In this document: one piece after another, positions 32,845 through 49,190 of the stretch | How the letters are laid out: each line of letters begins with the position of its first letter | How positions within the stretch are numbered: position 1 is the first letter of the stretch | Origin: Fibrobacter sp. UWT2 | GTDB taxonomy: Bacteria; Fibrobacterota; Fibrobacteria; Fibrobacterales; Fibrobacteraceae | Assembly: GCF_900142545.1 (NCBI RefSeq) | Contig: NZ_FRBF01000007.1 | Span: forward strand, 62,001 to 126,000 | Direction: 5' to 3' | Length of the DNA stretch: 64,000 bases | Made by a program: the position numbers and the translations under genes | The notes under the pieces: generated by a model | What the model saw: only the letters and a program-made list of their open reading frames with translations | Told to the model about the DNA's origin: nothing | Databases searched by the model: none

Positions 32845-32935
32845 GACAGGGCCAAATTTAGAATTTTTCTGATTCCTTGGCAGGGGCCAAGCAGCCTCCA
32901 TGCTTCGGCAGACGAACTACTTTTGCACAAAAAGA

Positions 32936-32967
32936 CGACAATTATTGTCGCCTACATTTTATATATT
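32936..32967 (+). promoter_or_regulatory. operator and -10 box of the WYL regulator gene
   Basis: A perfect 15-bp palindrome CGACAATTATTGTCG (32936-32950) is followed after 11 bp by TATATT (32962-32967), 48 bp before the start of the WYL gene. Similar palindromes with the same 11-bp spacing occur at 36603-36643, 38979-39010 and 49148-49179. This indicates autoregulation plus control of three other units. Confidence 0.75.
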
Positions 32968-33015: not shown

Positions 33016-34041
33016 ATGGCCAGTCAAGCTCGCGGCGAACGAATGATACGAATTTTCGTCTACATGATGGCGCACTACAACAACCGTTACAGCGTCGCCG
33101 ACATCATGCGGCATTTGGACATTCGCGAAGAAGACCTGCGGAGCGTGCAGCGCGACATGCACGCACTCTCCGAAATCGAGGGCGGTTACATCAAGCGCTC
33201 TGTCGAAAGTGGCAAGACCTATTACCAGGTGGCACTTGAACGTGCAAACAAGCTCATATTCCCGGAATTTGGCGACACGCTACTGCACTTCATGTTCCTG
33301 CAGCGCATCGCGAACATTTATCCGGCAACATCGAATCTCATCGAAGACCTGACCAAGAGAATCACGCAGGACTTGCCCGCTAAGGAACAATCGACTTTAG
33401 CGCATTACGCGAAGGAACTGAACGGACGCATTCTGTTTATGGGAACTCCTCCGAGCGTTGACGATAACGTAGGCAAGAATCTGCCAGTCATTCTCGACGC
33501 CATTCGCAAAAAGCAGAAAGTACAAATCACCTACACCGACAACTGGGGCAATACAACCAACAAGCCTCGCATTCCGCTGATGGTCGCCATCAACCAAGGC
33601 GAAATCTACATCGGTTGCGTATCGCAGCACCACCCCGATCAAACATACGCCCTCAAGCTCCGCCGTATTCAATCCGTAAAACTTTTGCGCGAACAATTCG
33701 TCGAAGATCCGAAAGTCGTTGAGACACTCCGCAAGCGAATCCGCACAGGCACGTTACTTTCGGGCGACCAAGACCAACAAGAAGAAAAAGTTGTCATCTA
33801 TTTCCCGGGATACGCCAAGAACTTTCTGCAAGAGCGCCCTTACCACCCCAGCATGAAAATCAAGGAGCTGGATTGCGGTGACATACACGTGACCATGAAG
33901 GTCGCCGTCAACGGCCTGCTCAAGCAATGGGTCATGTACTACGGCTCCATTGCCGAAGTGCTAAAGCCCGCTAAGCTCCGCCAAATGGTACTTGAAAGTG
34001 CTAAAGATTTGGTGAAACTGTACGAAAGAAAGTCTACTTAA
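33016..34041 (+). CDS. WYL-domain transcriptional regulator
   Basis: A 341-residue DNA-binding regulator. An N-terminal winged helix (about 8-60, RMIRIFVYMMAHYNNRYSVADI) is followed by a helical linker. The WYL domain (about 150-235) has PLMVAINQGEIYIGC where the W-Y-L triad is replaced by I-Y-I, then KLRRIQSVK. A C-terminal WCX-like extension ends in VMYYGSIAEVLKP. This resembles regulators such as BrxR and CapW that control phage-defence operons. The start is set by CAGGAGG seven bases upstream. Its own promoter carries the palindrome shared by three other transcription units in the window, so it is the best candidate to bind it. The ligand is unknown. Confidence 0.9.
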   Translation: MASQARGERMIRIFVYMMAHYNNRYSVADIMRHLDIREEDLRSVQRDMHALSEIEGGYIKRSVESGKTYYQVALERANKLIFPEFGDTLLHFMFLQRIANIYPATSNLIEDLTKRITQDLPAKEQSTLAHYAKELNGRILFMGTPPSVDDNVGKNLPVILDAIRKKQKVQITYTDNWGNTTNKPRIPLMVAINQGEIYIGCVSQHHPDQTYALKLRRIQSVKLLREQFVEDPKVVETLRKRIRTGTLLSGDQDQQEEKVVIYFPGYAKNFLQERPYHPSMKIKELDCGDIHVTMKVAVNGLLKQWVMYYGSIAEVLKPAKLRQMVLESAKDLVKLYERKST

Positions 34042-34555
34042 TCCTATCCCCGCAGAATTCCTGGCGGCCACATTTTTTGCAGTGCGAGCCCATCCATAGC
34101 GTATCGAACTGTTCTATAGCAGGTTCAACAAGTGCAGGGTCGTTCGTGAGAATTCCCGCTTCGAAGTTACGGCGCAGAGAGCTTTTCATGCCGATTCCCG
34201 CACCCGTCAAATTCGCAGAGCCGATGTAAGCGGTTTCGAGATCAAAAATCATCATCTTGAAATGCACACGCGGGCACATCACGCGTTCCAAATCCGTCAC
34301 CAGAATCGGGAACCGGTCAAAGTCCTCACGAAAATTCGGACCAGGTTCCTTTGCGTGAATCAGGCGCACGCCCACCCCTCGCTTCAAAAGTGCGGCCAAC
34401 TGCCCCAGCAACGGAATCGCATCGCCATCCTGTTTCACATACACATCCTTGATATCGGCAGTACCAATCCACAAGTTATTGCGGACCGACATGATTCGTG
34501 AAATCACTTCGGAATAGTGTTCTTCGTTCTGGATGTATTTAGTGAAAATGGACAT
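34034..34555 (-). CDS. phospholipase D-like HKD-family protein
   Basis: A 173-residue soluble protein with a single HKD motif: HFKMMIFDLETAYIGSANLTG (H-x-K-x4-D-x6-GS-N). One-motif PLD proteins usually dimerise and include nucleases such as Nuc as well as lipases. The C-terminus CKKCGRQEFC could bind zinc. No signal peptide is present, so a nucleic-acid substrate is plausible. The gene ends within the 3' end of the convergent WYL gene (8-bp overlap). ATG 34555 (MSIFTKYIQ) is used; a TATATT box lies only 12 bp upstream. Confidence 0.82.
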   Translation of the reverse strand: MSIFTKYIQNEEHYSEVISRIMSVRNNLWIGTADIKDVYVKQDGDAIPLLGQLAALLKRGVGVRLIHAKEPGPNFREDFDRFPILVTDLERVMCPRVHFKMMIFDLETAYIGSANLTGAGIGMKSSLRRNFEAGILTNDPALVEPAIEQFDTLWMGSHCKKCGRQEFCGDRIK

Positions 34556-34583: not shown

Positions 34584-35159
34584 CTATTTTCTCTCCGCTC
34601 TTGCAGCTTTAATTTCCGCTTCAATTTCTTCTTCGCTCATGCCTGCAGAGCCGTTTTTCAATGCATCATCATTCAAGGCTTGTAACGCGGACATAAGAGT
34701 GGATGCGGAATAAGAAACCGAGACATCATTTACAAATATTTGCGATTGAACGGGATTTATCAAATCCAGAAAAATTCGAGCACTTATCGCAAAAGGAACG
34801 TTAGGAAAATGCTTTATATTACCCGTAACGACATAGGCATTTTTATCACGATGAGCAAAAGCTACATCATAAAAGATTCTGTCATCAACATCTGGCAAAG
34901 TAAAGTCCGTCGGCGCGACAGGCTCATTTATAGCGTATTTTAAAATTTCATCCACAAAGCGTTGACCGTATGAAACATTCCACCTGAATTTAGAACGGCT
35001 CATCACTTCACAATATTCTTCAACAATATTTTCATCAACAATCGGCGTAAAAAGGTGTTTCGAGATACCTTGAAAAACCGCATAAGGAACTGATTGCAGA
35101 CGATCTTTCGCAAGGGCTGCAGAAACCAATATGTTTGTATCAACGACTGCGTAATACAC
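34584..35159 (-). CDS. PIN-domain toxin with antitoxin-like C-terminal tail
   Basis: A 191-residue PIN-family RNase-like toxin (PIN_3/COG1569 type). Acidic metal-ligand candidates are in VVDTNILVSA, NIVEEYCEV and the central PDVDDRIFYDVAF, with VTGNIKHFP near the end of the PIN fold. It starts at GTG 35159, inside the last 20 bp of the antitoxin gene, with GGAGA nine bases upstream, so translation is coupled. The last 37 or so residues (SALQALNDDALKNG and MSEEEIEAEIKAARAERK) repeat the antitoxin's C-terminus almost exactly; see the duplicated DNA 34587-34697 and 35164-35274. Toxin activity is inferred from family and context. Confidence 0.85.
   Translation of the reverse strand: MYYAVVDTNILVSAALAKDRLQSVPYAVFQGISKHLFTPIVDENIVEEYCEVMSRSKFRWNVSYGQRFVDEILKYAINEPVAPTDFTLPDVDDRIFYDVAFAHRDKNAYVVTGNIKHFPNVPFAISARIFLDLINPVQSQIFVNDVSVSYSASTLMSALQALNDDALKNGSAGMSEEEIEAEIKAARAERK
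34587..34697 (-). repeat. 111-bp direct repeat, copy in toxin gene
   Basis: About 100 of 111 bases match the copy at 35164-35274, the first ~56 bases being identical. Both encode the MSEEEIEAEIKAARAER tail in frame, one at the end of the PIN toxin and one at the end of the RelB-like antitoxin. Confidence 0.85.
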
Positions 35160-35457
35160 GTTTTTTTCTCTCCGCTCTTGCAGCTTTAATTTCCGCTTCA
35201 ATTTCTTCTTCGCTCATGCCAGCAGAGCCGTTTTTCAAGGCATCTTCATTGAGTGCACGTAATGCCGACATAAGTCCAGAAGATTCACTCATCGTAGGAT
35301 GTTCGGACACCTTAAACGGCAACCCTCTTTCAATTACCGCTCGCCTGAAAAAAATGCGAACAGCCGTAGGAATGTCCATTCCTAGACTTTCAAACAAGTC
35401 GGAGACCTCGTCTTTCAACTTATCATCCACACGTATTTGCAATATTGATGTCGCCAT
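35140..35457 (-). CDS. RelB/DinJ family antitoxin
   Basis: A 105-residue protein with an N-terminal ribbon-helix-helix DNA-binding region: TSILQIRVDDKLKDEV strand, then LFESLGMDIPTAVRIFFRRAV, the RelB/DinJ signature. The C-terminal half would wrap the toxin and contains the repeat tail MSEEEIEAEIKAARAERK also found on the toxin. It precedes and overlaps the PIN toxin gene by 20 bp. RelB family antitoxins repress their own operons through the RHH domain; no operator was clearly identified upstream. Confidence 0.9.
   Translation of the reverse strand: MATSILQIRVDDKLKDEVSDLFESLGMDIPTAVRIFFRRAVIERGLPFKVSEHPTMSESSGLMSALRALNEDALKNGSAGMSEEEIEAEIKAARAERKKRVLRSR
35164..35274 (-). repeat. 111-bp direct repeat, copy in antitoxin gene
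   Basis: Partner of 34587-34697. It codes for the C-terminal tail of the RelB-like antitoxin. The pair lies in tandem about 577 bp apart and would permit recombination that deletes the toxin core. Confidence 0.85.
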
Positions 35458-35544: not shown

Positions 35545-36582
35545 TCAGGAAGCATCTTTTTTGCTCGGACTTAAGCTTTTTTTTCTTGTTTTTGGTGGAT
35601 TCGCCAAAGATTCCAATTGTTCCAGAATTATGCCAAGCAAAGCCTCTCTACTATTAAGAGTCTTTTGCAACCCAGCGAGTTCACTTTCTGCAAGGCTGAT
35701 TTCCTGATCAATATCACTTGTTGCTATATCACGAATCGTCATTTTTTCAAAATATCTATTTTGCACCTCGTCAAAACCCATACTAGCGCCGAATTCTTGC
35801 ATACTCTTGAATTTATGCCTTCGTTCCAAATTTGCAGGCAAATCTTTCAAGAACATTTTCTTCGCATCCAACCAATGCATTTTTTCGTTAGCTTCCTTGA
35901 CATCCCTAGCGAATGATCGCTCTAAACAATCAACGCGGTGTTCAACCCATATTCCAAGCATTTGCGCAAACGAAAGTTTTTCAACTTTCTCGCCGGTCCA
36001 AATAGGGAACGTCCTAGATTCGTCCAACAAAGGATGGTTCGATTGCGAAGCACCATTACAATAATCACGTACATAAGCAATAACATCTAAGAAATCATGT
36101 GGAGGAACACTAACATGTTCACCCTCAAATCCATTCACAAGCAGATTAGGAAACATAGATGGCAAGCAACGGGGTTCCTTGAAACGACCATCATAATTAT
36201 CAAACAATTCAACAGCCCCATTTTCAATTCGATCAAACATCGATTTACCCCAAGGACTAAGCATCACCTCTGTGAAGCGCATAGCCGCATACGAGTTTCG
36301 GTCAGCTGGAGAACCAAAATTTCCTTGACCAAAAACAAGAGGCGTTTTCTCCGTAAGCTGTACCATATTGACTAAGGCTTTGTATATACAGTCATCATTA
36401 TATGGATAAAAACGCCCCATCACAGAACCAACAATGCTCGCAGACTTCATGAAACGATTCCATTCTTTTTTGGGGCAAGTTCTAAGAGCCCAAAGAATTC
36501 TTCTCTGCACAGAAGTCAAGCCATCCCGCACATCGGGATATAATTCCATCTGTTTCGTATCGTTCTTATTTATCGAGTTCAT
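35545..36582 (-). CDS. GyrA/ParC-like protein lacking the catalytic tyrosine
   Basis: A 345-residue protein aligned by eye with the N-terminal breakage-reunion region of type IIA topoisomerase A subunits: YPDVRDGLTSVQRRILWAL, KSASIVGSVMGRFYPYNDD, VFGQGNFGSPADRNS, then AAMRFTE. In GyrA/ParC the last motif is AAMRYTE and its tyrosine cleaves DNA; here it is Phe103 (codon TTC). The His-Pro-His of GyrA is also changed (YPYNDD). The tower region is divergent, the C-terminal beta-pinwheel is absent, and residues 300-345 form a coiled coil with a Lys/Ser tail. DNA cleavage is therefore unlikely; DNA binding or interference with gyrase is possible. GGAGG precedes the start. A 33-bp palindromic operator sits just upstream. 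Confidence 0.85.
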   Translation of the reverse strand: MNSINKNDTKQMELYPDVRDGLTSVQRRILWALRTCPKKEWNRFMKSASIVGSVMGRFYPYNDDCIYKALVNMVQLTEKTPLVFGQGNFGSPADRNSYAAMRFTEVMLSPWGKSMFDRIENGAVELFDNYDGRFKEPRCLPSMFPNLLVNGFEGEHVSVPPHDFLDVIAYVRDYCNGASQSNHPLLDESRTFPIWTGEKVEKLSFAQMLGIWVEHRVDCLERSFARDVKEANEKMHWLDAKKMFLKDLPANLERRHKFKSMQEFGASMGFDEVQNRYFEKMTIRDIATSDIDQEISLAESELAGLQKTLNSREALLGIILEQLESLANPPKTRKKSLSPSKKDAS

Positions 36583-36602: not shown

Positions 36603-36643
36603 AATATAGATTTAGTAGACGACAATTATTGTCGTCTACTAAA
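36603..36643 (-). promoter_or_regulatory. 33-bp perfect palindromic operator and -10 box
   Basis: A perfect 33-bp palindrome (36611-36643) centred on the CGACAATTATTGTCG core and flanked by TAGTAGA arms. Reading the minus strand, 11 bp separates the core from TATATT (36603-36608), 20 bp before the GyrA-like start. It is the strongest of the four sites of the WYL-linked set. Confidence 0.85.
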
Positions 36644-36650
36644 AGATTTT

Positions 36651-37691
36651 TTAAAATCCCAATCTGCGGCCCTGATGGTCGTCTTTATTGGCGAGTTCTT
36701 CGAGCATGTTCTGCAAGATGAGTTCCTTCGTACGCAACTCATCAGGGACATATTCTAGCTTGCGGCGAACATTCTGAAAGTCGCTAATCGCCACATTATC
36801 GCAGCGAAGGATTTCCTTGGGGCAATGGCTCCCGAAGAACGCAGTCCACGTCCTTGAAATTTGTGGCAGATCCATATAATCAAACGCCAGCTTCAGCTGA
36901 AAACGCCGACGAATCGCCCAATCCAAGACATTCTCGTAGTTTGTCGCAGCAATCAGCATTCCGTTAAAGGAATCCATTTGGCAAATGAACTCATTCACTA
37001 GTGTCACTTCCCAATGGTTTTTCGCATTACCACGATTTTCAAAGAAACTGTCCGCCTCGTCGATAAACAGAATCGCATCACTCCGTTCCGCTTCACGGAA
37101 CATCGCGCTAACGTTATGTTCACTTTCGCCCACATGGCACCCCAGAATATCGCTCGCCCGTTTCACGATAATCTCGCGATCTAGAATGTCATGCGCGACA
37201 TGCTTTGCAAAAGCCGACTTTCCGGTGCCGGGAGGGCCATACAGAAATATATTCAGGTTTTCCCTACGCCCCGTCAATTTCGAATCTTTCCAGCGTGCAT
37301 CAAAATTCTTGAGCATCGGCACGACATAATCAATATTCCGAATATCTCCACTCGAAATACGGACACAATCCAGATTATAATCTGGCCTCGATTCCTGAGG
37401 CAAAGTCGATATACCCAAAAGTTTCGCATGCGACGATGCCACTTCGCGAACCACATTTAAAGGCGACATATCCTGAGACTGCATCCGTTGAGCAAGCCGA
37501 ACCGCCAAAGTGGCGCTCCCTGCCATCACTGGTATTTCCTTGGCCACACATTCAATATCTTCGCCACGCATCATTGATTCCGCCTGTTGCGTTTTCAGCA
37601 CCGATTGCCAAATGGCAATGCGTTCGCTCTTGCTGAACGAGAAAAATTCTAGCGAGTAATCGAAACGGCGACGGGTACTATTTTCAATCAT
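36651..37691 (-). CDS. AAA+ ATPase, C-terminal part (second AAA domain)
   Basis: A 346-residue fragment. It starts with the end of a first AAA domain (sensor-like ENSTRRRFDYSLEFF) and then carries a complete AAA module of the Vps4/SpoVK/ClpX-like kind: Walker A GPPGTGKS, Walker B ILFIDEADSF, sensor 1 IAATNYEN, arginine-finger region AIRRRFQ. The DNA upstream of its ATG, read in this frame, continues as LLNIIFESLKTPVIWITNNIA, which joins it to the preceding gene. One 766-residue protein with two AAA domains was therefore probably ancestral. Whether this part is translated on its own is unknown. ATP-driven remodelling is expected; the substrate is not known. Confidence 0.8.
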   Translation of the reverse strand: MIENSTRRRFDYSLEFFSFSKSERIAIWQSVLKTQQAESMMRGEDIECVAKEIPVMAGSATLAVRLAQRMQSQDMSPLNVVREVASSHAKLLGISTLPQESRPDYNLDCVRISSGDIRNIDYVVPMLKNFDARWKDSKLTGRRENLNIFLYGPPGTGKSAFAKHVAHDILDREIIVKRASDILGCHVGESEHNVSAMFREAERSDAILFIDEADSFFENRGNAKNHWEVTLVNEFICQMDSFNGMLIAATNYENVLDWAIRRRFQLKLAFDYMDLPQISRTWTAFFGSHCPKEILRCDNVAISDFQNVRRKLEYVPDELRTKELILQNMLEELANKDDHQGRRLGF

Positions 37692-37698
37692 CGCGATA

Positions 37699-38952
37699 TT
37701 ATTCGTAATCCAGATGACAGGCGTTTTCAGGCTCTCGAAAATAATATTCAGCAGACCCTTTTTCTGCCTTATTCAAGACCAAGTCCGCCTCATCCATCAA
37801 GATGACGCAGCCACTCCGCTCACATTCCCAATCGGCCAAAAGCATCGAGCGCAAGCGCGTCTGCAAAAGGGATTCCTCGCTCATTGATTCTTCACCGATG
37901 CCCACCGAAAGCAGCGTAACATTCAATTCTTGTGCAATCGCCTTGGCAAGTTCCGTCTTGCCCGTACCCTCGCGACCATAAAAAAGGATGTTCAGTGGAG
38001 TGCCCCTCTGGTGCGATTTCAGCATCTGTAAAACAAAAGACGCCTGCGGATTCGTCTTGACAATCCGCTCATAGGGGACACACGGTTTTGCTGCCGGTCT
38101 GAAATCCATAATCTGCGACATATCTGAGAATCCATACAGATAATTGCTCACGTCGTCCGCTAGGTACAATTCCTTGCGTTTGATTCTCAAATCCGTATTG
38201 CGGAACGATTCTTCCATTTGAATTAACTGAAACTTAAGAAGCGGACTCTCCTTGGAACAAAGTTCCTGAAGCGTTGTGCCATCAAGCCCCGTCAGCAAGG
38301 CAATCCGACTAAAGGCTCCACGCTCATTCGGGTCAAAAGTTTCCCCCTCTTTCACCCGAATGTTTTCTAGCCTCAAATACAGTCGCTGATGGTTCCGAAG
38401 CCACAAATAAAGCACCAGTTCCACTGCCTCATCCGACAAATGGAAAAGACGCTTTAACTCAAAAGCGCGTTGCAAGGCTTCGTCATCGTGCGAGCAACCT
38501 TTTGCCAGCTTTTCTTTCACGCAATTTTCAATCATCTGCACGATAATCGGTCGCAAGCAATCATTCGCGCGCTCCAAATAAGCCATAATTTCAAAAAACT
38601 GCTGAGCAAAGCGAACATTCCTGGTTTCGTGATACGCCTCCAAAAGCTCCCGTACCCCATAATGCTTGTCATCAATCGAAGTCCTGATAGTACTCGAAAA
38701 ATCAACCTGGTCGCGAATCTCGTAAACACGGTTCGCAAATTCGCCATAATAACGGACCGGCAAATAATTCTCGCAAAAACTGCGACAGCAACCATCCGGA
38801 TACGCCCGCATAAAGCGCACCCAGTATTCCATAATCTTCAAGTCGATAAAAGAAGTCCTCGACTCCGCCTTCGCTACAGGCGACTTCCCTTCTAACCGAT
38901 TCAGCGCATTCCCGAAATAATTCTCTGCCGAATTTTGATAATGAAGCTGCAT
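37699..38952 (-). CDS. AAA+ ATPase, N-terminal part (frameshifted)
   Basis: A 417-residue fragment. Residues 1-300 are alpha-helical without recognised domain; residues about 320-415 begin an AAA domain with Walker A GREGTGKT and Walker B VILMDEADLV. It ends abnormally soon after Walker B with a frame change at 37756-37763 (A5G3 tract); the remainder of the domain continues in another frame and leads into 36651-37691. Start 38952 is set by AAGAGG nine bases upstream. The promoter contains a palindrome of the WYL-linked set. Frameshift could be real, phase-variable or a sequencing error. Confidence 0.78.
   Translation of the reverse strand: MQLHYQNSAENYFGNALNRLEGKSPVAKAESRTSFIDLKIMEYWVRFMRAYPDGCCRSFCENYLPVRYYGEFANRVYEIRDQVDFSSTIRTSIDDKHYGVRELLEAYHETRNVRFAQQFFEIMAYLERANDCLRPIIVQMIENCVKEKLAKGCSHDDEALQRAFELKRLFHLSDEAVELVLYLWLRNHQRLYLRLENIRVKEGETFDPNERGAFSRIALLTGLDGTTLQELCSKESPLLKFQLIQMEESFRNTDLRIKRKELYLADDVSNYLYGFSDMSQIMDFRPAAKPCVPYERIVKTNPQASFVLQMLKSHQRGTPLNILFYGREGTGKTELAKAIAQELNVTLLSVGIGEESMSEESLLQTRLRSMLLADWECERSGCVILMDEADLVLNKAEKGSAEYYFREPENACHLDYE
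37756..37763 (-). other. putative frameshift tract in double-AAA ATPase gene
   Basis: On the minus strand the tract reads AAAAAGGG. Removing one base restores one frame through KAEKGLLNIIFESL and links the two AAA parts. One extra base in this run explains the premature stop at 37699. Confidence 0.75.
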
Positions 38953-38978
38953 AGCAAAACCTCTTGATTCTACCATGC

Positions 38979-39010
38979 AATATAAAAGAAACGCACGACA
39001 ATTAATGTCG
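38979..39010 (-). promoter_or_regulatory. operator and -10 box of the AAA+ ATPase gene
   Basis: CGACATTAATTGTCG on the minus strand (38996-39010) is a palindrome with one mismatch, followed after 11 bp by TATATT (38979-38984), 26 bp before the start. Spacing and core equal those of the other three sites. Confidence 0.72.
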
Positions 39011-39031
39011 TTCACTTTTTATTCACAAAAA

Positions 39032-40172: not shown

Positions 40173-40874
40173 CTATTTGAGCCAATTTTCTTTAAGCCAA
40201 GCGCAAAAGAAATCCCGCGACGTCATGCCGCGAGCTTTTGTGTAGCCCGTCATCGGCTGATTCCAATGGACGCTTGACGGATGCTTCGTATAGACATATT
40301 CAATGCCGCGCGGTCCCGTCCAATCCCAAAATTCACCGCCAAAATACTTCGGGTAATCAAAGGCCTCCGCCTGCTTGCAGACACGAGAACTCAAGAACAC
40401 AAACATGTCCGGCTTCAGGATTTCAAGAACTTTGATAAAATTGAGAATAGCTTGTTCGCAGTCAATTTCTTTTCCGCCATAAGCATTCCATAAATCCTCG
40501 ATTCCAGTCGTGCAATCCGCCGGACGCAAGAAGTAATTGAGGAAAGCCACCTGATGCCAACCATTGCCGCCGCTCGGCAGCACCAAATTCAAGCAACGAT
40601 CAATCTCTTTACCGAAACGACCACTCTTGCCCTCACGAGTCCCACGAGTGTTGCACCAATCCTGCTCATCACTCGTTAGCACTGGATGTCCGTACCACGA
40701 ATTCGCATCGTGATGCACAGTAGCCCCTTCGGGCAAGTAAAAGCTCTCGCCCACAAGCAAAAGCTTTTTATGCTTTGAGGATTCATAATTGTCACCAACA
40801 AAAGGCATCATGTACGGATGCGATCTGTAGAACGGGATAGAAAGAAAGCGGGAATCGTAAGTAGTATTGGACAT
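40173..40874 (-). CDS. uracil-DNA glycosylase superfamily-like protein
   Basis: A 233-residue soluble protein, last gene of the GTPase operon. Strand-loop LLLVGESFY near residue 38 and HPSSVHWN near residue 205 recall motifs A and B of the UDG fold, and KPDMFVFLSS fits the intervening strand. The family is broad and includes proteins acting on non-DNA substrates; similarity is too weak to assign an activity. GGAGATACT precedes ATG 40874; a longer frame reaching 40985 would overlap the zinc-finger gene. It starts 11 bp after that gene. Confidence 0.65.
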   Translation of the reverse strand: MSNTTYDSRFLSIPFYRSHPYMMPFVGDNYESSKHKKLLLVGESFYLPEGATVHHDANSWYGHPVLTSDEQDWCNTRGTREGKSGRFGKEIDRCLNLVLPSGGNGWHQVAFLNYFLRPADCTTGIEDLWNAYGGKEIDCEQAILNFIKVLEILKPDMFVFLSSRVCKQAEAFDYPKYFGGEFWDWTGPRGIEYVYTKHPSSVHWNQPMTGYTKARGMTSRDFFCAWLKENWLK

Positions 40875-40885
40875 AGTATCTCCAA

Positions 40886-41122
40886 TTACAGAGCCGGTTC
40901 GTGGCCGCCCCTCGAAGGACTCTTTAAACAACGAGCGTTCACCATGGCAAATATCGTAGGGAATTGCAGTCCACAATATTTGCAAGTGTACTTAGACTTT
41001 TCAGAGCCCTCGTACAGCACATGGTTAGCACCACCACCCTGCTTTGCACAGCGTGCATGCACCAATGCAAAAACCGAAGGAAAACCAATTCCGCAATATT
41101 TACAATAGAACTTGGAAGGCAT
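40886..41122 (-). CDS. small protein with two zinc-finger-like units
   Basis: A 78-residue protein made of two copies of about 30 residues. Each has CKYCG, then F-P-x-x-F-A-x-V-x-A-R-C, giving a possible CxxC...HxxxC or CxxC...C metal site (first copy VHARC, second VNARC). Gly-rich stretches link them. No known family is recognised, but the duplication and conserved spacing support a real gene. It lies between the 123-residue protein (15-bp gap) and the glycosylase-like gene (11-bp gap) in the same operon. Confidence 0.65.
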   Translation of the reverse strand: MPSKFYCKYCGIGFPSVFALVHARCAKQGGGANHVLYEGSEKSKYTCKYCGLQFPTIFAMVNARCLKSPSRGGHEPAL

Positions 41123-42066: not shown

Positions 42067-42885
42067 CTATGCTGTTTTTTTTACAAGAAGTTTGATGTCT
42101 GCAATTTTCTTTGTACATTTAGCCTCCATATTTTTTTCATTTTGAATTTCCTTCTCTAACAAAGCTTTTTCAGCATTTAAATTTTTCTCTTTATCCAAAA
42201 CTTCCTGAAGAGTTTTTTCTATATAATCCATTTTCTCTGATATCTCATCAAGTGTTTTGGCAATTAACGCAGAAATACGTTGAGAAACAAGCTTCGGAAT
42301 AGAGTCATATTTTTTTTCCACATTAGCCTTTTGTTTATTTACAGCAGCGGTAATCTTAGCCGCAACAACTGATCCTCTTGTAGTTAAATTATCCCAAAAA
42401 CCTGATGGGAGACCCAAATCTTTAAGATTAGAATCAATGTCAACATCCCATTTTTCCTTGGAATAGTCTACAATTATTCCTCTTACATTTTCATGCATTA
42501 CTGCAGAAATTTTCTGTACAATAGAATCCTGCTTTTTCGACACATTTTCTTGGATTTCATGAACACCAGAACGAATGTATTTTTCCAAGCCATTCTTGAT
42601 CTCTCTCATTTTAAGATCCCAAATATCAGGAAATTCACCTTCAACATTGTGATATCCGCCCGATTTGCTTACCAAACGTTCTATCTCCGGCTGAAAATTA
42701 AGATTATTCCACTCAGTCAACAACCGATCCTTTATATTCGATTCAAAGTCTTCAACACTTTTATTTAATTTCTTTTTTATCTTTCCCAATTCGACAATAA
42801 TATCAGCTTCATCATTTCTTATAATTTTCAGTTTATCCTTAATTTCTTCTAAAGGCCTTTCAAATTGGTCAAACTTAAATTTCAA
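42067..42885 (-). CDS. coiled-coil protein in GTPase operon
   Basis: A 272-residue helical protein. Heptad-like Lys/Glu/Leu patterns occur at residues 1-60 and 190-265 (IEKTLQEVLDKEKNLNAEKALLEKEI). No signal peptide or known domain. Its N-terminus overlaps the end of the third GTPase gene by 11 bp, so the two are translationally coupled. Stalk-like coiled coils are characteristic of dynamin-type proteins and it might supply one in trans; this is inference. Confidence 0.72.
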   Translation of the reverse strand: MKFKFDQFERPLEEIKDKLKIIRNDEADIIVELGKIKKKLNKSVEDFESNIKDRLLTEWNNLNFQPEIERLVSKSGGYHNVEGEFPDIWDLKMREIKNGLEKYIRSGVHEIQENVSKKQDSIVQKISAVMHENVRGIIVDYSKEKWDVDIDSNLKDLGLPSGFWDNLTTRGSVVAAKITAAVNKQKANVEKKYDSIPKLVSQRISALIAKTLDEISEKMDYIEKTLQEVLDKEKNLNAEKALLEKEIQNEKNMEAKCTKKIADIKLLVKKTA

Positions 42886-44026
42886 CAGGTTTATAGATTC
42901 CTGAATTTTTTTTCACTTTTCCTGAATAAACAGAACAACAAATATTGCTAAGACTTTCAATACGAGCATAACCACTATTTTTATACAAGCGATCAGAAAC
43001 TTGTTTAGCTAAATTATTTGGATCGGAATTAAAATCAGGGAATCTTCTTAAAATTTTTTCATCTCTGACTGAGGCCTTATTATGTTTCTTCTTCTTCTGA
43101 GCCAAATTAACTTGAGCAGAATACGGACACAAAACTTCCCCAGTAACAAATAATCCAACTGCTTTGTATGCTGGTTCATCAGAGTAACCTGCAGTAGCAT
43201 GCTTATAGTCCTTATTTTCGTCAATTCTATTTTGAACTAGAATTCGAGTATTTAAAGTTTTAGCAGGCATAAACGTTTTAAAGAACTCTAAATCAGAAGA
43301 GCCTAAACCACGAACTGGAAAAACATATATAATAGCATGAGCCTGATTAATCCACTTTGTAGTTTCGTTGGAATTGATTCTATTCGGATCATTCAACCCC
43401 GGAGTATCTACAATTTGTAAATTCTTTAGCTTATCACTTTTTATATAAATTTCAACATTCTTAACAAATGGAGTATATACACCGACATTCGGATTTTGCT
43501 CGCCTTCTTTAGGAACAGAAGTATATTCTGCTAAGCGTCCCAAATCATCAACATCTACAGGACTTTTACCAACGCAATTGAACAAAGTCACATCTTTTGA
43601 AGCTGAATACTCAAGACGTTCATCCAACGCTTTTCGATTTTCCTCAGGCAAGGTACTCTTCATTTCATCCCATTCTGATTTAGAATACCAGTTAACCGTA
43701 AAGTAATTTTTTTCCTTTTTTGACTCACGAACAAAAGTTAACTTTGCCGTTTCAGGCGTAACAAAAGACGGCAAGACTTCATCTTCGAAAATAAGGGAAT
43801 TCAGCAATGTCGATTTACCAGCCTTGACCTCTCCGCATACCGCAATAGTGAACATTTCATTCAAACAATGATCAAATTCTGACCGCAATGATTCTGCTGT
43901 TATAGTCTTATCAGCAGCAGATGTTTGAATATCTACAGGAAGAATATCGCTAGAAATAATCTGTTCTAACTCATCCTCGAAACATTTTTTTGCATTTTCA
44001 AAGTTTTGGTTTACTGTTGTTGACAT
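42875..44026 (-). CDS. dynamin-like GTPase (third of three)
   Basis: A 383-residue GTPase. G1 is GEVKAGKS (residues 65-72), G2 lies in VTPETAKLTFV, G3 is VDTPGLND (about 211-218) and G4 is in LVQNRID. The order and the absence of a long C-terminal stalk indicate a short dynamin-family member; a separate coiled-coil gene follows with an 11-bp overlap. The start lies 2 bp after the stop of the frameshifted continuation of the preceding gene. Likely acts with its two neighbours in membrane binding or remodelling. Confidence 0.85.
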   Translation of the reverse strand: MSTTVNQNFENAKKCFEDELEQIISSDILPVDIQTSAADKTITAESLRSEFDHCLNEMFTIAVCGEVKAGKSTLLNSLIFEDEVLPSFVTPETAKLTFVRESKKEKNYFTVNWYSKSEWDEMKSTLPEENRKALDERLEYSASKDVTLFNCVGKSPVDVDDLGRLAEYTSVPKEGEQNPNVGVYTPFVKNVEIYIKSDKLKNLQIVDTPGLNDPNRINSNETTKWINQAHAIIYVFPVRGLGSSDLEFFKTFMPAKTLNTRILVQNRIDENKDYKHATAGYSDEPAYKAVGLFVTGEVLCPYSAQVNLAQKKKKHNKASVRDEKILRRFPDFNSDPNNLAKQVSDRLYKNSGYARIESLSNICCSVYSGKVKKNSGIYKPVEI

Positions 44027-44081
44027 TTTTATCTCTCCAGTTCAAATTTCATCTGTTCGTATTCAATATTAAACAATTCTT

Positions 44082-45641
44082 CTAGTTGTTTTTTCTTGTC
44101 ATACGCAGAGCTATCAATCCATTCTTCAAATTTTTTTCGTTTAGCATCCAATTTTTTTTTACTAAACTCAACCACATCCTTCTAGTTTGGCTATTAAAGT
44201 CTCTACATTCTTTACAAACTTTTGATTTGTCATTTCCAAAAAAATCATCATTATAATCATCGAGTAATTCAAATTTTGGCATCGAAACAGATTGAGGCAA
44301 TCTCAAATACGGCCTAAATATAGAATCACAACGTTTTACAAAAGCATCAATACTATCCTTACTCTTTTGCCATTCTTCAGCCCAATTTCCAGACCCAATC
44401 CAGCGACCATCTCTTGCATTGACATAATAATTTTTAAACCAAGATCCTTTACATCCGACTTCACAAAAATAAATAGAATTTATTGCCGAACTATACATTT
44501 CGTAAACACTATCAAACATGTCTTTAAATTGGATTTTCAATTCCGTCGGGGAGTAATCCACAATTTTTTCACCAACACCATTAGCGAGCAAATATTCCCG
44601 TAACCAACCACACTTCCGATAAGAGAACTCTCTTAACGATTCCTTCTTTGACTCATTAAAAATTGCATAATTTTTTTCCAAACTTTTTTTTATTCTCTGC
44701 TTAGCTAAGCCACTATGTTTGTCAGCAATTTCTACAATTTTTTTCTTTAAGCGCAGTTTTTCTTGTTCAAAATATACTTTCTCATCTTCATCAAGATCAG
44801 CACAATTGGGGTCGCTGAGATTTGCATAGAAGAAACAATCTTCATACTGAATACCATTCTTTTTCAAGGTTGCAGTTATTGAGATCTTCACAGCCTCTCT
44901 TTCCGCCTGTTCTACTGCAGTATCAGCCATTGTAATGATAACATACAACAATTTCTTCTTATCTTTTCCCGCATAATCAGCATTCAAAATGCCTTCTCTA
45001 CTCTTGGAGCCCTTCAAGAACTCCAAAAGATTTTGCCCAGAGACTCCTTCACTACACTTACAAAGCAAAAATATTATATCAGCATTCCTATCTTCTTTCA
45101 AACTAATTTCATTATCTATTTTCTTTGTTTTATCATCTTGTGTTCCTGGATCAAAGCCAGGCACATCAGATATAACAATCCCCTTTAAAAAATCTGATGG
45201 AACATTAATCGTATATTGAAGTCTGTTAAGCCCCTTATCAACAGCTTTCTTACGATAATCAGCCTCACTAATACAATTTCCTTCACTATCAAAAAATTGC
45301 AACGTTTTTCCATAAGATATTCTAGTAATTGTACGTGTTGTTTCTCCAGTATCTACAGGAGCAACCTTTTTTCCTATTAAATCATTGATAAAGCTTGATT
45401 TTCCACAAGAATATCTTCCAGCAAGAGCTATTCGCAAAAGAGACGATTCATTCGATTCTTTGAAAAGACCTGTTTTTTGCAAACGTAAATAGTTACCTGC
45501 ATAATTTTCCAAATCAATAGACGTTATGGACTCAAATTCTTGGAACGAATCAAGAATTCTTTCTACATCCTTACGAAATGAAGCAACTTCATCAGAAAAG
45601 TTTTTCATTTCATTCGCGGTCATTTCCTTATATTCAATCAT
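44082..45641 (-). CDS. dynamin-like GTPase (second of three), possibly frameshifted
   Basis: A 519-residue GTPase as read. G1 is GRYSCGKS (75-82), followed by GETTRTITRI, G3 is DVPGFD (159-164) and G4 may be TMAD. The C-terminus is helical. At an A9 tract (44152-44160) the other frame continues for about 40 codons as LDAKRKKFEEWIDSSAY and more, ending with TAA at 44029-44031, just 2 bp before the next gene. The tail as read (WMLNEKNLKNGLIAL...) looks spurious. Either one A is missing from the tract or slippage produces the longer product of about 536 residues. It begins in a 4-bp ATGA overlap with the first GTPase. Confidence 0.8.
   Translation of the reverse strand: MIEYKEMTANEMKNFSDEVASFRKDVERILDSFQEFESITSIDLENYAGNYLRLQKTGLFKESNESSLLRIALAGRYSCGKSSFINDLIGKKVAPVDTGETTRTITRISYGKTLQFFDSEGNCISEADYRKKAVDKGLNRLQYTINVPSDFLKGIVISDVPGFDPGTQDDKTKKIDNEISLKEDRNADIIFLLCKCSEGVSGQNLLEFLKGSKSREGILNADYAGKDKKKLLYVIITMADTAVEQAEREAVKISITATLKKNGIQYEDCFFYANLSDPNCADLDEDEKVYFEQEKLRLKKKIVEIADKHSGLAKQRIKKSLEKNYAIFNESKKESLREFSYRKCGWLREYLLANGVGEKIVDYSPTELKIQFKDMFDSVYEMYSSAINSIYFCEVGCKGSWFKNYYVNARDGRWIGSGNWAEEWQKSKDSIDAFVKRCDSIFRPYLRLPQSVSMPKFELLDDYNDDFFGNDKSKVCKECRDFNSQTRRMWLSLVKKNWMLNEKNLKNGLIALRMTRKNN
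44152..44160 (-). other. A9 slippery tract and probable frameshift site
   Basis: Nine consecutive A on the coding strand, positioned so that ten would keep frame into a natural-looking C-terminus. Candidates are indel error, phase variation, transcriptional slippage or -1 ribosomal slippage. Confidence 0.65.
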
Positions 45642-47461
45642 ATATTATCTACCATACGAGAAATTTTTTTAATGTTTTCCTCGAGTTCACTTCTTTCCGT
45701 ATTAAATTTCTGATATCCCTGCACTCTCTTCTTTTCTTCTTCTTCCAACGCAACCTTCTGATCATTCAAATTTTGTTGTAACGGACAAACAATTTCAACT
45801 TCAAAAGCATCAGATAACGAAGAAATGACATTTCTTGCAATAGATGAGGAATAATTTGCAATAAGCCCTTCAAAAGAAGATTCCTTAACCTTACCAGCAA
45901 CAAGTGTACCCACATGTTCCAACGGGTTAATATCTTTAATAACCGTTCCCATTGCACCAAGAAACTTTGCAAATTTTGAAGATTCTTTCACAACTTGTTT
46001 CGAGGCATTTTTTCCAACATTTTCTGCAACTTTCCCAACTTTTTCAGCAACTTTTCCTGCAGATTCACCTGCTTGTTGTGTCGCTCGTTTAGACAACAAG
46101 TCTCCTATTTTCTGAGAAAGATTTTGTTTTGCAGCTTCTTTTCCAATCTTTTCTGCAGCATTACCAGCAGCTTTTACCGCAGCACCACCAGCAGCTTCAG
46201 CAGCATTTGCAGCAGTACTAGCCCCCGGCATAAGCCAAGCAGTCAACACAGCCGTAGACACCATAACAAGAGCGTCTTTTTTCTTATCAATTCCAGCCAT
46301 CGCTGCCATAATTTCAGAGCCTACAGAGCTTTTCACATTATCAGGCACATCAAAATTAGGCAACAAGGTCTTCACCTTATAATCAATACTTTGAACAAGA
46401 GAATCCAGCATAGAATCAACTTGACTCTTTAACTGATTTGAATCAGCAATAGAAACAGCAGTTTTCCAACTACTTAATTGGCTATAAATATCCTTTTGCA
46501 ATTCCTGCTGCAACGAAGACAAGCGACATCTATGAGATTCAATCCTATTTTCCAAATCATAAATACATTTTTCAATTTCTTCCTGTCGCTTATCTATCTC
46601 AGAATCATCTAATTTCATATTCGTCAATAGCGTCTCCAAATGAGATTTTAGCTGAGAAGCAATTTGGCAAAGATTCTGATTCAGCCTTTTTTCGTTTAAA
46701 TGTTCAATATCATTTAAAATATGAGTTTTTACAAATGAATAAACCAAATCAGCATTTCCAACGCCATCTTTTCCATTAACAAAAAAGATTTTATCTTCAA
46801 TATTGTCAATTTTCAATTTATCGCCAATATTACGCAGTTGTCTAACAACCTCAGAGCGAACAGCATCTTCATTCTCCACTTCATCTTGATGCGTCAAAGC
46901 AAATACAATATGGTTTGCCATCGACTGAATTCCAGGACGGCAAAGGAACTCCAAAACGTTATGATTTATAGTTCCATTTAGGCTTTTGATGCAAAATACA
47001 GCAGCATCAACATACTGCAAATAAGCAAAAGTCTGTTCAATTTCGGTTCCAACACTATCAATACCCGGAGTATCAACAAACACCGACCCTTCTGGCAAAA
47101 TAGATGACGGTTTTGTCTTTATAACAGCTAACCCATCCTTACTACCATCCACAATTGAATAAAAATCAGAAATTGAAATTTTTTCCAAACTTTGACCATC
47201 ATCCAAATAGTATTCATTCTTTTCAATACCAGGAGTCGGCACAATCATGCAAATTGACTTTGTAGTCGCACTAATGTCTGTCGGAAGATTCAATCCCAAA
47301 ATGGAATTTATCAAGCTTGTTTTACCAGCACTAAACGCACCAAGAAAACCAATTTTGACACTCTGTTGTTCCACAGCCTTTTGCAAAGACGTTTCTACCG
47401 ATGATACATCATATTTTTTCGCATAAAACTGTATCAAATTTTTTAATTCTTCGTTGTTCAT
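45638..47461 (-). CDS. dynamin-like GTPase (first of three) with membrane-active region
   Basis: A 607-residue GTPase with G1 GAFSAGKTS (41-49), G2 region SATTKSICMIV, G3 VDTPGID and G4-like ALTHQDE. Residues 265-330 are coiled coil. Around residues 390-470 there is an Ala-rich hydrophobic stretch (VSTAVLTAWLMPGAS, then repeated AA/AG helices) resembling the membrane paddle of bacterial dynamin-like proteins. The C-terminus is again coiled coil. It starts 28 bp after the DUF1232 gene. LeoA/BDLP-like proteins bend or stabilise membranes; phage tolerance or vesicle release are precedents, inferred only. Confidence 0.87.
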   Translation of the reverse strand: MNNEELKNLIQFYAKKYDVSSVETSLQKAVEQQSVKIGFLGAFSAGKTSLINSILGLNLPTDISATTKSICMIVPTPGIEKNEYYLDDGQSLEKISISDFYSIVDGSKDGLAVIKTKPSSILPEGSVFVDTPGIDSVGTEIEQTFAYLQYVDAAVFCIKSLNGTINHNVLEFLCRPGIQSMANHIVFALTHQDEVENEDAVRSEVVRQLRNIGDKLKIDNIEDKIFFVNGKDGVGNADLVYSFVKTHILNDIEHLNEKRLNQNLCQIASQLKSHLETLLTNMKLDDSEIDKRQEEIEKCIYDLENRIESHRCRLSSLQQELQKDIYSQLSSWKTAVSIADSNQLKSQVDSMLDSLVQSIDYKVKTLLPNFDVPDNVKSSVGSEIMAAMAGIDKKKDALVMVSTAVLTAWLMPGASTAANAAEAAGGAAVKAAGNAAEKIGKEAAKQNLSQKIGDLLSKRATQQAGESAGKVAEKVGKVAENVGKNASKQVVKESSKFAKFLGAMGTVIKDINPLEHVGTLVAGKVKESSFEGLIANYSSSIARNVISSLSDAFEVEIVCPLQQNLNDQKVALEEEEKKRVQGYQKFNTERSELEENIKKISRMVDNI

Positions 47462-47489
47462 TTTTTACCTCTTTTTTCCATTAAACCTT

Positions 47490-47819
47490 TTACTTCACAA
47501 TCAGCGCCACGATCGCAGCAATCAAACCGCCGAGCAACAGAGCGGCGATTACAACTGCGATGACCATAAACCATTTGGCGTATTTCAGGATTTTCACCAT
47601 GGCGCTATTCTGGTCCTTTGAAAACTGCTGAACCACATTCATGGTTGCTGTCACAAGGAATCCAATGTCATCGAGCCACCCCACAACGGGAATGGCATCG
47701 GGAGCCAAGTCAATGGGCGATGCAGTATACAAAAGCGACATGATCATCAAAAAAACGGCTAGTCCCTTATTCAAAGGGGATGCGCCGTTCATATCCATAA
47801 CTTCGGGTTCTTTATCCAT
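47490..47819 (-). CDS. YkvA/DUF1232 family membrane protein
   Basis: A 109-residue protein with the DUF1232 signature YTASPIDLAPDAIPVVGWLDD after a first hydrophobic helix, and a second C-terminal transmembrane region (VIAVVIAALLLGGLIAAIVALI). Function of the family is unknown. It is the first gene of the minus-strand operon that continues with three GTPases. AGAAGG precedes the start and a TATATT box lies 25 bp upstream. Confidence 0.85.
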   Translation of the reverse strand: MDKEPEVMDMNGASPLNKGLAVFLMIMSLLYTASPIDLAPDAIPVVGWLDDIGFLVTATMNVVQQFSKDQNSAMVKILKYAKWFMVIAVVIAALLLGGLIAAIVALIVK

Positions 47820-47843
47820 ATTTTTCCTTCTTCTTTAAAAAGA

Positions 47844-47897
47844 AATATATCCTATTTTCTACAAAAGAGCACAAATCCCCACAAAAACTATAGTTTT
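47844..47897 (-). promoter_or_regulatory. promoter region of GTPase operon
   Basis: A TATATT box on the minus strand (47844-47849) lies 25 bp before the DUF1232 start. A 14-bp palindrome AAAACTATAGTTTT (47884-47897) is upstream and may be an operator or part of the terminator of the FISUMP gene. The CGACAATTATTGTCG motif is absent here. Confidence 0.45.
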
Positions 47898-47946
47898 CCC
47901 TCAAAAAACGTTATTTTAGGCACTCCAACTTGGAATAAGTACCCAT

Positions 47947-48576
47947 TCAGTAGTCTTTCACGCACCGAATTGAATTCGCGCAGGAAAAATCGTTCCAAAA
48001 GCGGTCGAGAACGGCATCGTCGTAACAATTGTCTAGGCGAACGCGGTATGCCCACTTGTTTTGCCCGACGGAACTCCAGAATCGCGTGTGTCTGCCGCGA
48101 GCTCCGCAAAAGCCGAAGTCTTCCATGCAACCCGCCGGATACGCCGTAAAGTTGAATGCATCAGCACTTTTGCCAACAGGGAACAGTTCGTCTTCTTCCC
48201 AATCGTCTTTGGACTTTAACGCAAGAGCCGCCCCAAGGTAAGTTTCGGCACCATGCTCGCCCATTTCACATTTTGCGCCAACTGCATTAAACAAGTCTCG
48301 CCAATCGTCATTGTTCGGCATGCGCCAACCTTTGGGGACTGCGGCTTCTGCAAATTTCCAGTAGTAGCACAAGCCATATTTCTTCACATTTGGGTCGCAG
48401 TTCCAATCGTAAGGCGGTGTTTCACCATTCAAGCATAGATACCCCTTGCCGCCAGCATACGCCTGCGCGCCTTCGCATTTATGCCGCAGGTTTTCGGCAA
48501 ACCATATCCGATTGCCGATTTTTACGGTGCGGTAGGTTTCACCATCTCGCGGATCTGTAAAGTACGAGTTAGTCAT
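47947..48576 (-). CDS. FISUMP-domain protein without signal peptide
   Basis: A 209-residue protein that is almost entirely one FISUMP domain: DGETYRTVKIGNRIWFAENL, then WKFAEAAVPKGWRMPNNDDW, RFWSS and SIRCV. It contains several cysteines but has no signal peptide or anchor, unlike most family members. It begins 9 bp after the Fic gene and is therefore in an operon with it under the WYL-linked operator. A function with Fic is unproven. The unsignalled form suggests a cytoplasmic location or leaderless export. Confidence 0.88.
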   Translation of the reverse strand: MTNSYFTDPRDGETYRTVKIGNRIWFAENLRHKCEGAQAYAGGKGYLCLNGETPPYDWNCDPNVKKYGLCYYWKFAEAAVPKGWRMPNNDDWRDLFNAVGAKCEMGEHGAETYLGAALALKSKDDWEEDELFPVGKSADAFNFTAYPAGCMEDFGFCGARGRHTRFWSSVGQNKWAYRVRLDNCYDDAVLDRFWNDFSCANSIRCVKDY

Positions 48577-48585
48577 AAGAACCTC

Positions 48586-49119
48586 CTACATAATCAAATT
48601 CACCACGAGCTTGGTCATGGTTTCACGTTCTTCGGGTTTGCTTTCGGCAATGAGCAGCGTGAGTGCGACTAGGGCACCATCGCTTACGATTTTGGAGCAG
48701 TCCACTCGATAAAGGATATCGTTGCGCGACATATACCACAAGAAAATAAACGCAGCAATGCGTTTGTTGCCATCGACAAAGGAGTGGTTCTTGACAAGCA
48801 GATACAGGAGTGTTGCCGCCTTCATCTGCACGGTCGGATAAAGTTCCTTGCCGTCGAAGGTCTGGTAAATTTGTCCGAGTGAACTCTTGAAAGAAGCATC
48901 CTTTTCGACGCCGAAGATTCCGCTGTCTCGGAATTTTTCCTTGAGCACATCAATCGCTTCCATCGCCTGCTCGTAGGTGATGGGGCCACTCATTTCGCTA
49001 TAGTCTACGCCGGTCTTCGGGAATTCCAGCTGCTGGTGGTCGTAGCGGTCCAAAGTTTCTAGAGCCGCACGAAAATCACCGATGACATTCGATATTTCAA
49101 GTTTTTCCAATCTGTTCAT
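48586..49119 (-). CDS. Fic/DOC family protein
   Basis: A 177-residue Fic-domain protein with the catalytic motif HSFVDGNKR (canonical HPFxDGNxR, Pro replaced by Ser), where His starts the nucleotidyl-transfer reaction. The N-terminal 55 residues are helical and could carry an inhibitory segment, but no clear (S/T)xxxE(G/N) motif was identified. AAGGAG precedes the start. Fic enzymes AMPylate or otherwise modify target proteins and Doc-type members are toxins. It is the first gene of a Fic-FISUMP operon with a WYL-type operator. Confidence 0.9.
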   Translation of the reverse strand: MNRLEKLEISNVIGDFRAALETLDRYDHQQLEFPKTGVDYSEMSGPITYEQAMEAIDVLKEKFRDSGIFGVEKDASFKSSLGQIYQTFDGKELYPTVQMKAATLLYLLVKNHSFVDGNKRIAAFIFLWYMSRNDILYRVDCSKIVSDGALVALTLLIAESKPEERETMTKLVVNLIM

Positions 49120-49147: not shown

Positions 49148-49179
49148 AATATAGATTGAGCATGCGACAATTAGCGTCG
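49148..49179 (-). promoter_or_regulatory. operator and -10 box of the Fic operon
   Basis: CGACGCTAATTGTCG on the minus strand (49165-49179), a degenerate palindrome with two mismatched pairs, then 11 bp and TATATT (49148-49153), 28 bp before the Fic start. Fourth site of the set. Confidence 0.65.
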
Positions 49180-49190
49180 TTTGCAGATAC

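Follow-up and report, generated by a model that had tools for sequence, protein, structure and literature searches.

A non-catalytic, tower-less GyrA/ParC relative in a putative WYL-type regulon of Fibrobacter

The 64,000-nucleotide stretch analysed here (the window), from the genome of the rumen-type Fibrobacter sp. UWT2, encodes a GyrA-like protein that is a dead derivative of the A subunit of type IIA topoisomerases. Its gene is not a pseudogene; it has been conserved in the dead state under purifying selection, and together with its operator it forms a cassette that was recently transferred between Fibrobacter species. Judged by this operator, the gene appears to belong to a WYL-type regulon that also comprises a WYL regulator gene and a neighbouring AAA+ ATPase gene. 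As cargo of a probably WYL-controlled defence island, the protein may serve as a bait for, or a sensor of, factors that target gyrase, a mechanism that we infer and favour only tentatively.

A dead derivative of the type IIA topoisomerase A subunit

The reading frame and the parts of its product are the following.

35545–36582, reverse strand: GyrA/ParC-like ORF, tower-less and non-catalytic, 345 aa
36272–36280, reverse strand: codons Arg102-Phe103-Thr104; Phe103 (TTC, 36274–36276) stands where E. coli GyrA has its catalytic Tyr122
Amino acids 15–180 of the product: winged-helix DNA-gate domain
Amino acids ~190–197: vestige of the tower start
Amino acids ~203–327: coiled coil and C-gate

Pfam DNA_topoisoIV (PF00521) matches the protein in two stretches (E=6.5e-53), GyrA chains of the PDB match at E of about 1e-37, and NCBIfam GyrA matches too, so the homology to GyrA/ParC is not due to chance. 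The original prediction, made from the sequence alone, had called the frame GyrA/ParC-like and had pointed to Phe103 with its TTC codon, and both are borne out. AAMRFTE stands in place of AAMRYTE, and the HPH motif reads YPY (Tyr59-Pro60-Tyr61). Aligned with the host GyrA, and numbered after the corresponding E. coli GyrA residues, the active-site losses are Arg32->Glu13, His78->Tyr59, His80->Tyr61 and Tyr122->Phe103, accompanied by His45->Gln26, Ser83->Asp64 and Asp87->Lys68. Ile174->Glu155 plus a four-residue deletion shortens the loop of the intercalating, DNA-bending Ile. The predicted loss of HPH and absence of the C-terminal pinwheel were both confirmed by this alignment, which also revealed an overlooked deletion of the whole tower domain that leaves only a vestige (FPIWTG versus FPTGG). 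Furthermore, the first ~24 residues, those of the GyrB-facing N-arm, are missing. The earlier statement that the DNA-gate motifs are kept is right for GQGNFGS, AAMR and NLLVNG, and Arg47 and Arg121 are retained as well, but it does not hold for Arg32, His45, His78, His80, the Ile174 loop, the N-arm and the tower.

No GyrB/ParE partner gene was found at the locus, as had been predicted. In the host genome (3.49 Mb), a normal 900-aa GyrA and a ParC-type subunit of 850 aa, each of which carries Tyr, are accompanied by two GyrB/ParE genes and no more. Since these two serve the two full-length A subunits, the GyrA-like protein, as the third of the A type, is left with no B partner. Of the features that characterize a functional type IIA A subunit, the breakage-reunion core is present in both sequence and fold, whereas the catalytic Tyr, Arg32/His78/His80, the tower with the DNA-bending Ile and a cognate GyrB/ParE are all lacking. 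Because these defining features fail, the protein is not a topoisomerase as an enzyme, and normal topoisomerase action by it is impossible.

The fold was modelled with AlphaFold2. With the three family members alone, the C-gate coiled coil was predicted at a pLDDT of ~80 and the winged-helix part was unreliable. After addition of 38 viral GyrA sequences, the core reached a pLDDT of 84.5 and a pTM of 0.83; as this second alignment contained GyrA sequences, the result is support for the fold and not a fully independent proof. A Foldseek search with the model returned solely GyrA, ParC or gyrase-core structures among the 50 matches listed (TM-score up to 0.81, E 1e-17). The predicted fold is therefore that of the GyrA/ParC breakage-reunion core minus the tower, and not an unrelated structure. 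In terms of fold, the protein represents an architecture new to the GyrA family. No description of a tower-less, non-cleaving GyrA under selection was found in the literature searched, most subscription journals lying outside that search.

The two halves of the protein differ in their likeness to the host subunits. The winged-helix domain is ~41% identical to that of the host GyrA and ~40% to that of the ParC-type subunit, versus ~17% and 22%, respectively, for the coiled-coil/C-gate part; the charge of the winged-helix domain does not separate the protein from GyrA. With GyrA/ParC (PF00521) it shares a winged-helix domain of ~40–45% identity, the three motifs named above, the coiled coil, the C-gate and the overall fold. 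In contrast to them, it has no catalytic Tyr, HPH, Arg32, N-arm, intercalating Ile, tower, pinwheel or GyrB partner. The medium subunit gp52 of T4-type topoisomerases is likewise GyrA-like and without a pinwheel, but gp52 retains both Tyr and the tower and is accompanied by GyrB-type partners, and the protein described here is not phage-borne.

Conservation and transfer among Fibrobacter

Among 168 genomes of the phylum, the GyrA-like gene is present in two others, G061 (MAG Fibro_02, 99% identity) and G132 (MAG RUG11387, 66%), and a third (G117) holds a C-terminal remnant. Both homologues carry Phe at the position in question; Phe103 and YPY occur in 3/3 intact members, two of which are nearly identical. 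Since dN/dS between the 66%-identical copies is 0.26–0.27, we conclude that the dead state is kept by selection. An origin of Phe103 from a lost enzyme or a sequencing error is out, Phe and YPY being fixed in the 66%-identical homologue. The C-terminus of the protein is altered in the window genome.

A comparison of the window with G061 separates the cassette from its surroundings. Over the roughly 1,070 bp of operator and GyrA-like gene, four substitutions separate the two genomes (99.6% identity), whereas the flanks are about 90% identical (WYL gene 89.7%, PLD gene 93.7%, halves of the AAA+ gene 89–91%), and the break in identity falls abruptly at the AAA+ stop codon. The GC content is 40.7% in the GyrA-like gene, 48% in the window and 55% in the host gyrA.

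An origin from phages was rejected. No relatives with AAMRFTE were found among 2.9 million viral contigs, and at 80 viral GyrA loci the motif residue was Tyr at all 62 matching places. Candidates for tower-less phage relatives were rejected too, as the long tblastn matches (Enterococcus and Serratia phages) proved to be normal 661-aa or gp52-type subunits, the 661-aa subunit adjoining a GyrB gene. Likewise, a plasmid match (H31, 72% coverage) was a Tyr-bearing gyrA from Phocaeicola whose neighbours are chromosome-type genes. A scan of genome contigs with the pattern [NPM]xxAAMRFTE returned solely the G061 and G132 copies; it was confined to that pattern, and relatives outside Fibrobacter may exist. 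The alignment from which the pattern was built had been padded with artificially scrambled rows, used for the search pattern alone.

Operator, putative WYL regulon and island cargo

The genes and operators around the GyrA-like gene are arranged as follows.

32935–32951: operator of the WYL gene, one mismatch to the consensus
33016–34041, forward strand: WYL/WCX-domain transcriptional regulator, proposed repressor (Pfam WCX, WYL)
34034–34555, reverse strand: PLD-family protein bounding the variable slot (Pfam PLDc_2; PADLOC DrmC, resembling a DrmC-type PLD)
36613–36641: operator of the GyrA-like gene, core ACGACA-N5-TGTCGT at 36619–36635, 37 bp before the ATG
36651–37691, reverse strand: 3' half of the AAA+ ATPase, which contains the second AAA domain and is not in the frame of the 5' half (Pfam AAA)
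37699–39015, reverse strand: 5' half of the AAA+ ATPase with the first AAA domain, its conserved start MQLHYQN downstream of the operator
38995–39011: operator of the AAA+ gene, ACGACATTAATTGTCGT

The strong operator ascribed to the GyrA-like gene is indeed there, as a perfect palindrome of 33 bp whose core ACGACA-N5-TGTCGT is common to the AAA+ and WYL promoters. The perfect core occurs three times in the 3.49 Mb genome, two of these copies being at the GyrA-like and AAA+ genes, and a tighter motif, ACGACANTNATTGTCGT, was found in 25 of the 80 genomes of the genus versus 0 for the reversed control. The sites lie about 37–44 bp before start codons (about 42 bp before MQLHYQN at most loci orthologous to the AAA+ gene), for the most part within the WYL/AAA+ island or among genes typical of its cargo. 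Before the 66%-identical homologue in G132 the palindrome is degenerate, CGACGTTTATTGTCA. Outside the island, a near-match, ACGACAATCGTTGTCGC, was noted at window positions 16546–16562. The palindrome was also considered as a terminator of the AAA+ gene: its RNA folds well (z=-4.4), yet there is no U-tract and the WYL and AAA+ promoters have the core as well, and we therefore prefer an operator.

Repressors of the BrxR family, which are WYL proteins, recognise inverted repeats whose halves are 5 bp apart, and have defence islands under their control (PMC9122601); related work on WYL regulators is available (PMC9122588, PMC9122589). As with BrxR and CapW (PMC9122601, PMC9122588), a WYL/WCX gene here stands beside variable defence-type cargo, and inverted-repeat operators with a 5-bp spacer precede both the regulator's own gene and cargo genes. 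By this analogy, the Fibrobacter WYL protein probably binds the operator and represses the regulon. Unlike BrxR, the regulator lies outside the mainly proteobacterial BrxR family, and many separate cargo genes are each tagged with an operator.

The regulator gene, inverted-repeat operators and defence-type cargo expected of a WYL (BrxR-like) defence island were all found. Across the 25 Fibrobacter genomes, the island marked by the operator motif holds nucleases, GmrSD, McrBC, dynamin-like GTPases, Fic and PLD proteins, and operator-tagged cargo elsewhere includes an McrBC component, PDDEXK_4, Fic, DUF1232 and a GTPase. From this company of restriction and abortive-infection types, the island looks anti-phage. 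Within the window, positions 42067–49119 encode three dynamin-like GTPases, a DUF1232 protein, a FISUMP-like protein and a Fic protein, with an operator of two mismatches at 49164–49180 before the Fic gene. A RelB-type antitoxin and a PIN-domain protein (34584–35457) share the near-identical C-terminal tail SALxALNxDALKNGSAGMSEEEIEAEIKAARAERK, an internal duplication of about 111 bp. At 40173–40985, and at many related loci, a recurrent family with the motifs LLLVGESHY/ESFYLP and no Pfam match is encoded, which often adjoins an AAA+ gene or operators.

The original prediction placed the GyrA-like gene beside a AAA+ ATPase. This gene is indeed directly upstream on the same strand and shares the operator, but it had gone unnoticed that the two ORFs are a single tandem-AAA gene broken by a 1-base insertion. 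The extra A (five A instead of four at 37690–37700) may reflect a genuine mutation, slippage or a fault in the assembly. The orthologues in G061 (804 aa) and G132 (767 aa) are intact. AAA+ orthologues are common in the genus, between the WYL regulator gene and the PLD gene, and upstream of them there is usually a nuclease-type gene (GmrSD, PDDEXK_4 or the LLLVGESHY-motif family). The GyrA-like gene is absent at most of these loci and other neighbours stand beside most orthologues, so that an exclusive two-gene system of AAA+ and GyrA-like protein is out. The AAA+ gene is a co-regulated neighbour; since it mostly occurs without the GyrA-like gene and is frameshifted here while the GyrA-like gene is intact, it is not proven, nor clearly, an obligate partner. 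Its best PADLOC match is IetA of IetAS (E=5e-41 over one AAA domain), compared with which it has two AAA domains and a long N-terminal region. No IetS subtilisin-like protease was found beside it in the loci read.

In a sister genome (G097, L074:6456-7289), the same 3' slot beside the AAA+ gene is filled by a gene for a 277-aa FtsZ-related protein, 23 bp after the orthologous AAA+ gene. Its PDB matches are FtsZ chains alone (best E=0.0014), its other matches are the FtsZ genes of the genomes, a Fibrobacter FtsZ profile gives it 40.6 bits, and the GTP-binding GGGTGTG reads GGLYPYN. A WYL regulator gene and an operator adjoin it too. A more diverged relative in G095 (L150:7029-7760), 27% identical to the G097 protein and without the GTP-binding signature, is encoded beside the same WYL type with an operator between them and no AAA+ gene in the stretch read. 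By their sequences, two dead derivatives of multimeric essential proteins, GyrA and FtsZ, seem to occupy the regulon; the sample is small, the FtsZ parallel consisting of one clear and one diverged example, and most other cargo is ordinary nucleases or GTPases.

Possible functions of the GyrA-like protein

A non-cleaving type IIA relative with its own operator and a link to a AAA+ gene, as originally proposed, is supported by these results; the WYL regulon and the defence-island context were not part of that proposal. Because cleavage, G-segment holding and the GyrB-facing arm are lost and the winged-helix surface is kept, the protein appears suited to protein recognition rather than DNA work. 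A decoy or sensor, which had been among the suggested functions, is still the most probable of them. The WYL protein would repress the island and release it on phage attack, as BrxR-type repressors do. The GyrA-like protein might then homodimerise through its C-gate and display the GyrA winged-helix surface as bait, which is the least certain step. Gyrase-targeting phage or toxin factors would bind this bait instead of, or besides, gyrase, and binding would either neutralise them or trigger the AAA+ partner or another island effector. It is conceivable, if doubtful, that this extends to a bait-and-guard principle, with Fibrobacter defence islands carrying dead mimics of phage-attacked machines (GyrA, FtsZ) as operator-tagged cassettes beside AAA+ genes.

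Ranked after the bait or sensor, and unlikely in our view, is a dominant-negative effector: the derepressed dead subunit would co-assemble with host or phage GyrA/ParC, poison gyrase, halt replication and abort infection, and a dead FtsZ would likewise poison division. The origin of both mimics from obligate multimers, the retained dimer regions of C-gate and winged-helix domain, and a tight repression that befits a toxic product would all agree with this. However, the C-gate part is far less similar to the host subunits than the winged-helix domain, and this low identity disfavours mixed dimers with the host GyrA; the GyrB-facing arm is missing, and gyrase heterodimers with a single tyrosine can still function. 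We consider it less likely again that the protein reads DNA topology, its dimer binding duplex DNA uncut and presenting the DNA or itself to the tandem AAA+ protein as a clamp or adaptor. The two genes are adjacent, on the same strand and under the same operator, the winged-helix fold is retained, and the AAA+ protein resembles IetA-type defence ATPases. Nevertheless, the parts that hold and bend the G-segment, namely Arg32, His78, His80, the Ile loop and the tower, have been lost, which weakens the clamp of the original prediction, and the AAA+ gene is broken in the window genome and usually lacks a GyrA-like gene elsewhere.

With just three intact copies and one truncated remnant, a frameshifted AAA+ gene and an altered C-terminus in the window genome, the GyrA-like gene could also be a selfish or decaying relic, a gyrA fragment captured by a mobile island as a functionless passenger. 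We regard this as improbable in view of the dN/dS of the diverged copies, the fixed Phe and YPY, the intact frame and the recent transfer together with the operator. More improbable still is an antidote unrelated to phages, which would neutralise a gyrase-targeting toxin of the CcdB, ParE or Fic type belonging to the same or to a competing element. A mimic of the gyrase surface could act in this way, and Fic and RelB/PIN genes are present in the same island, but neither a CcdB nor a ParE gene was observed next to the GyrA-like gene, which recurs without the RelB/PIN pair in G061 and G132.

If the GyrA-like protein is a decoy, bacteria would protect gyrase, and perhaps also FtsZ, by putting dead copies of them on display, comparable to the integrated decoys of plant immune receptors, and the bait could be used directly to fish for phage-encoded gyrase inhibitors that are not yet known. 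Should it be no decoy, the WYL operator still provides a sequence tag that locates island cargo across Fibrobacter and makes the regulon testable.
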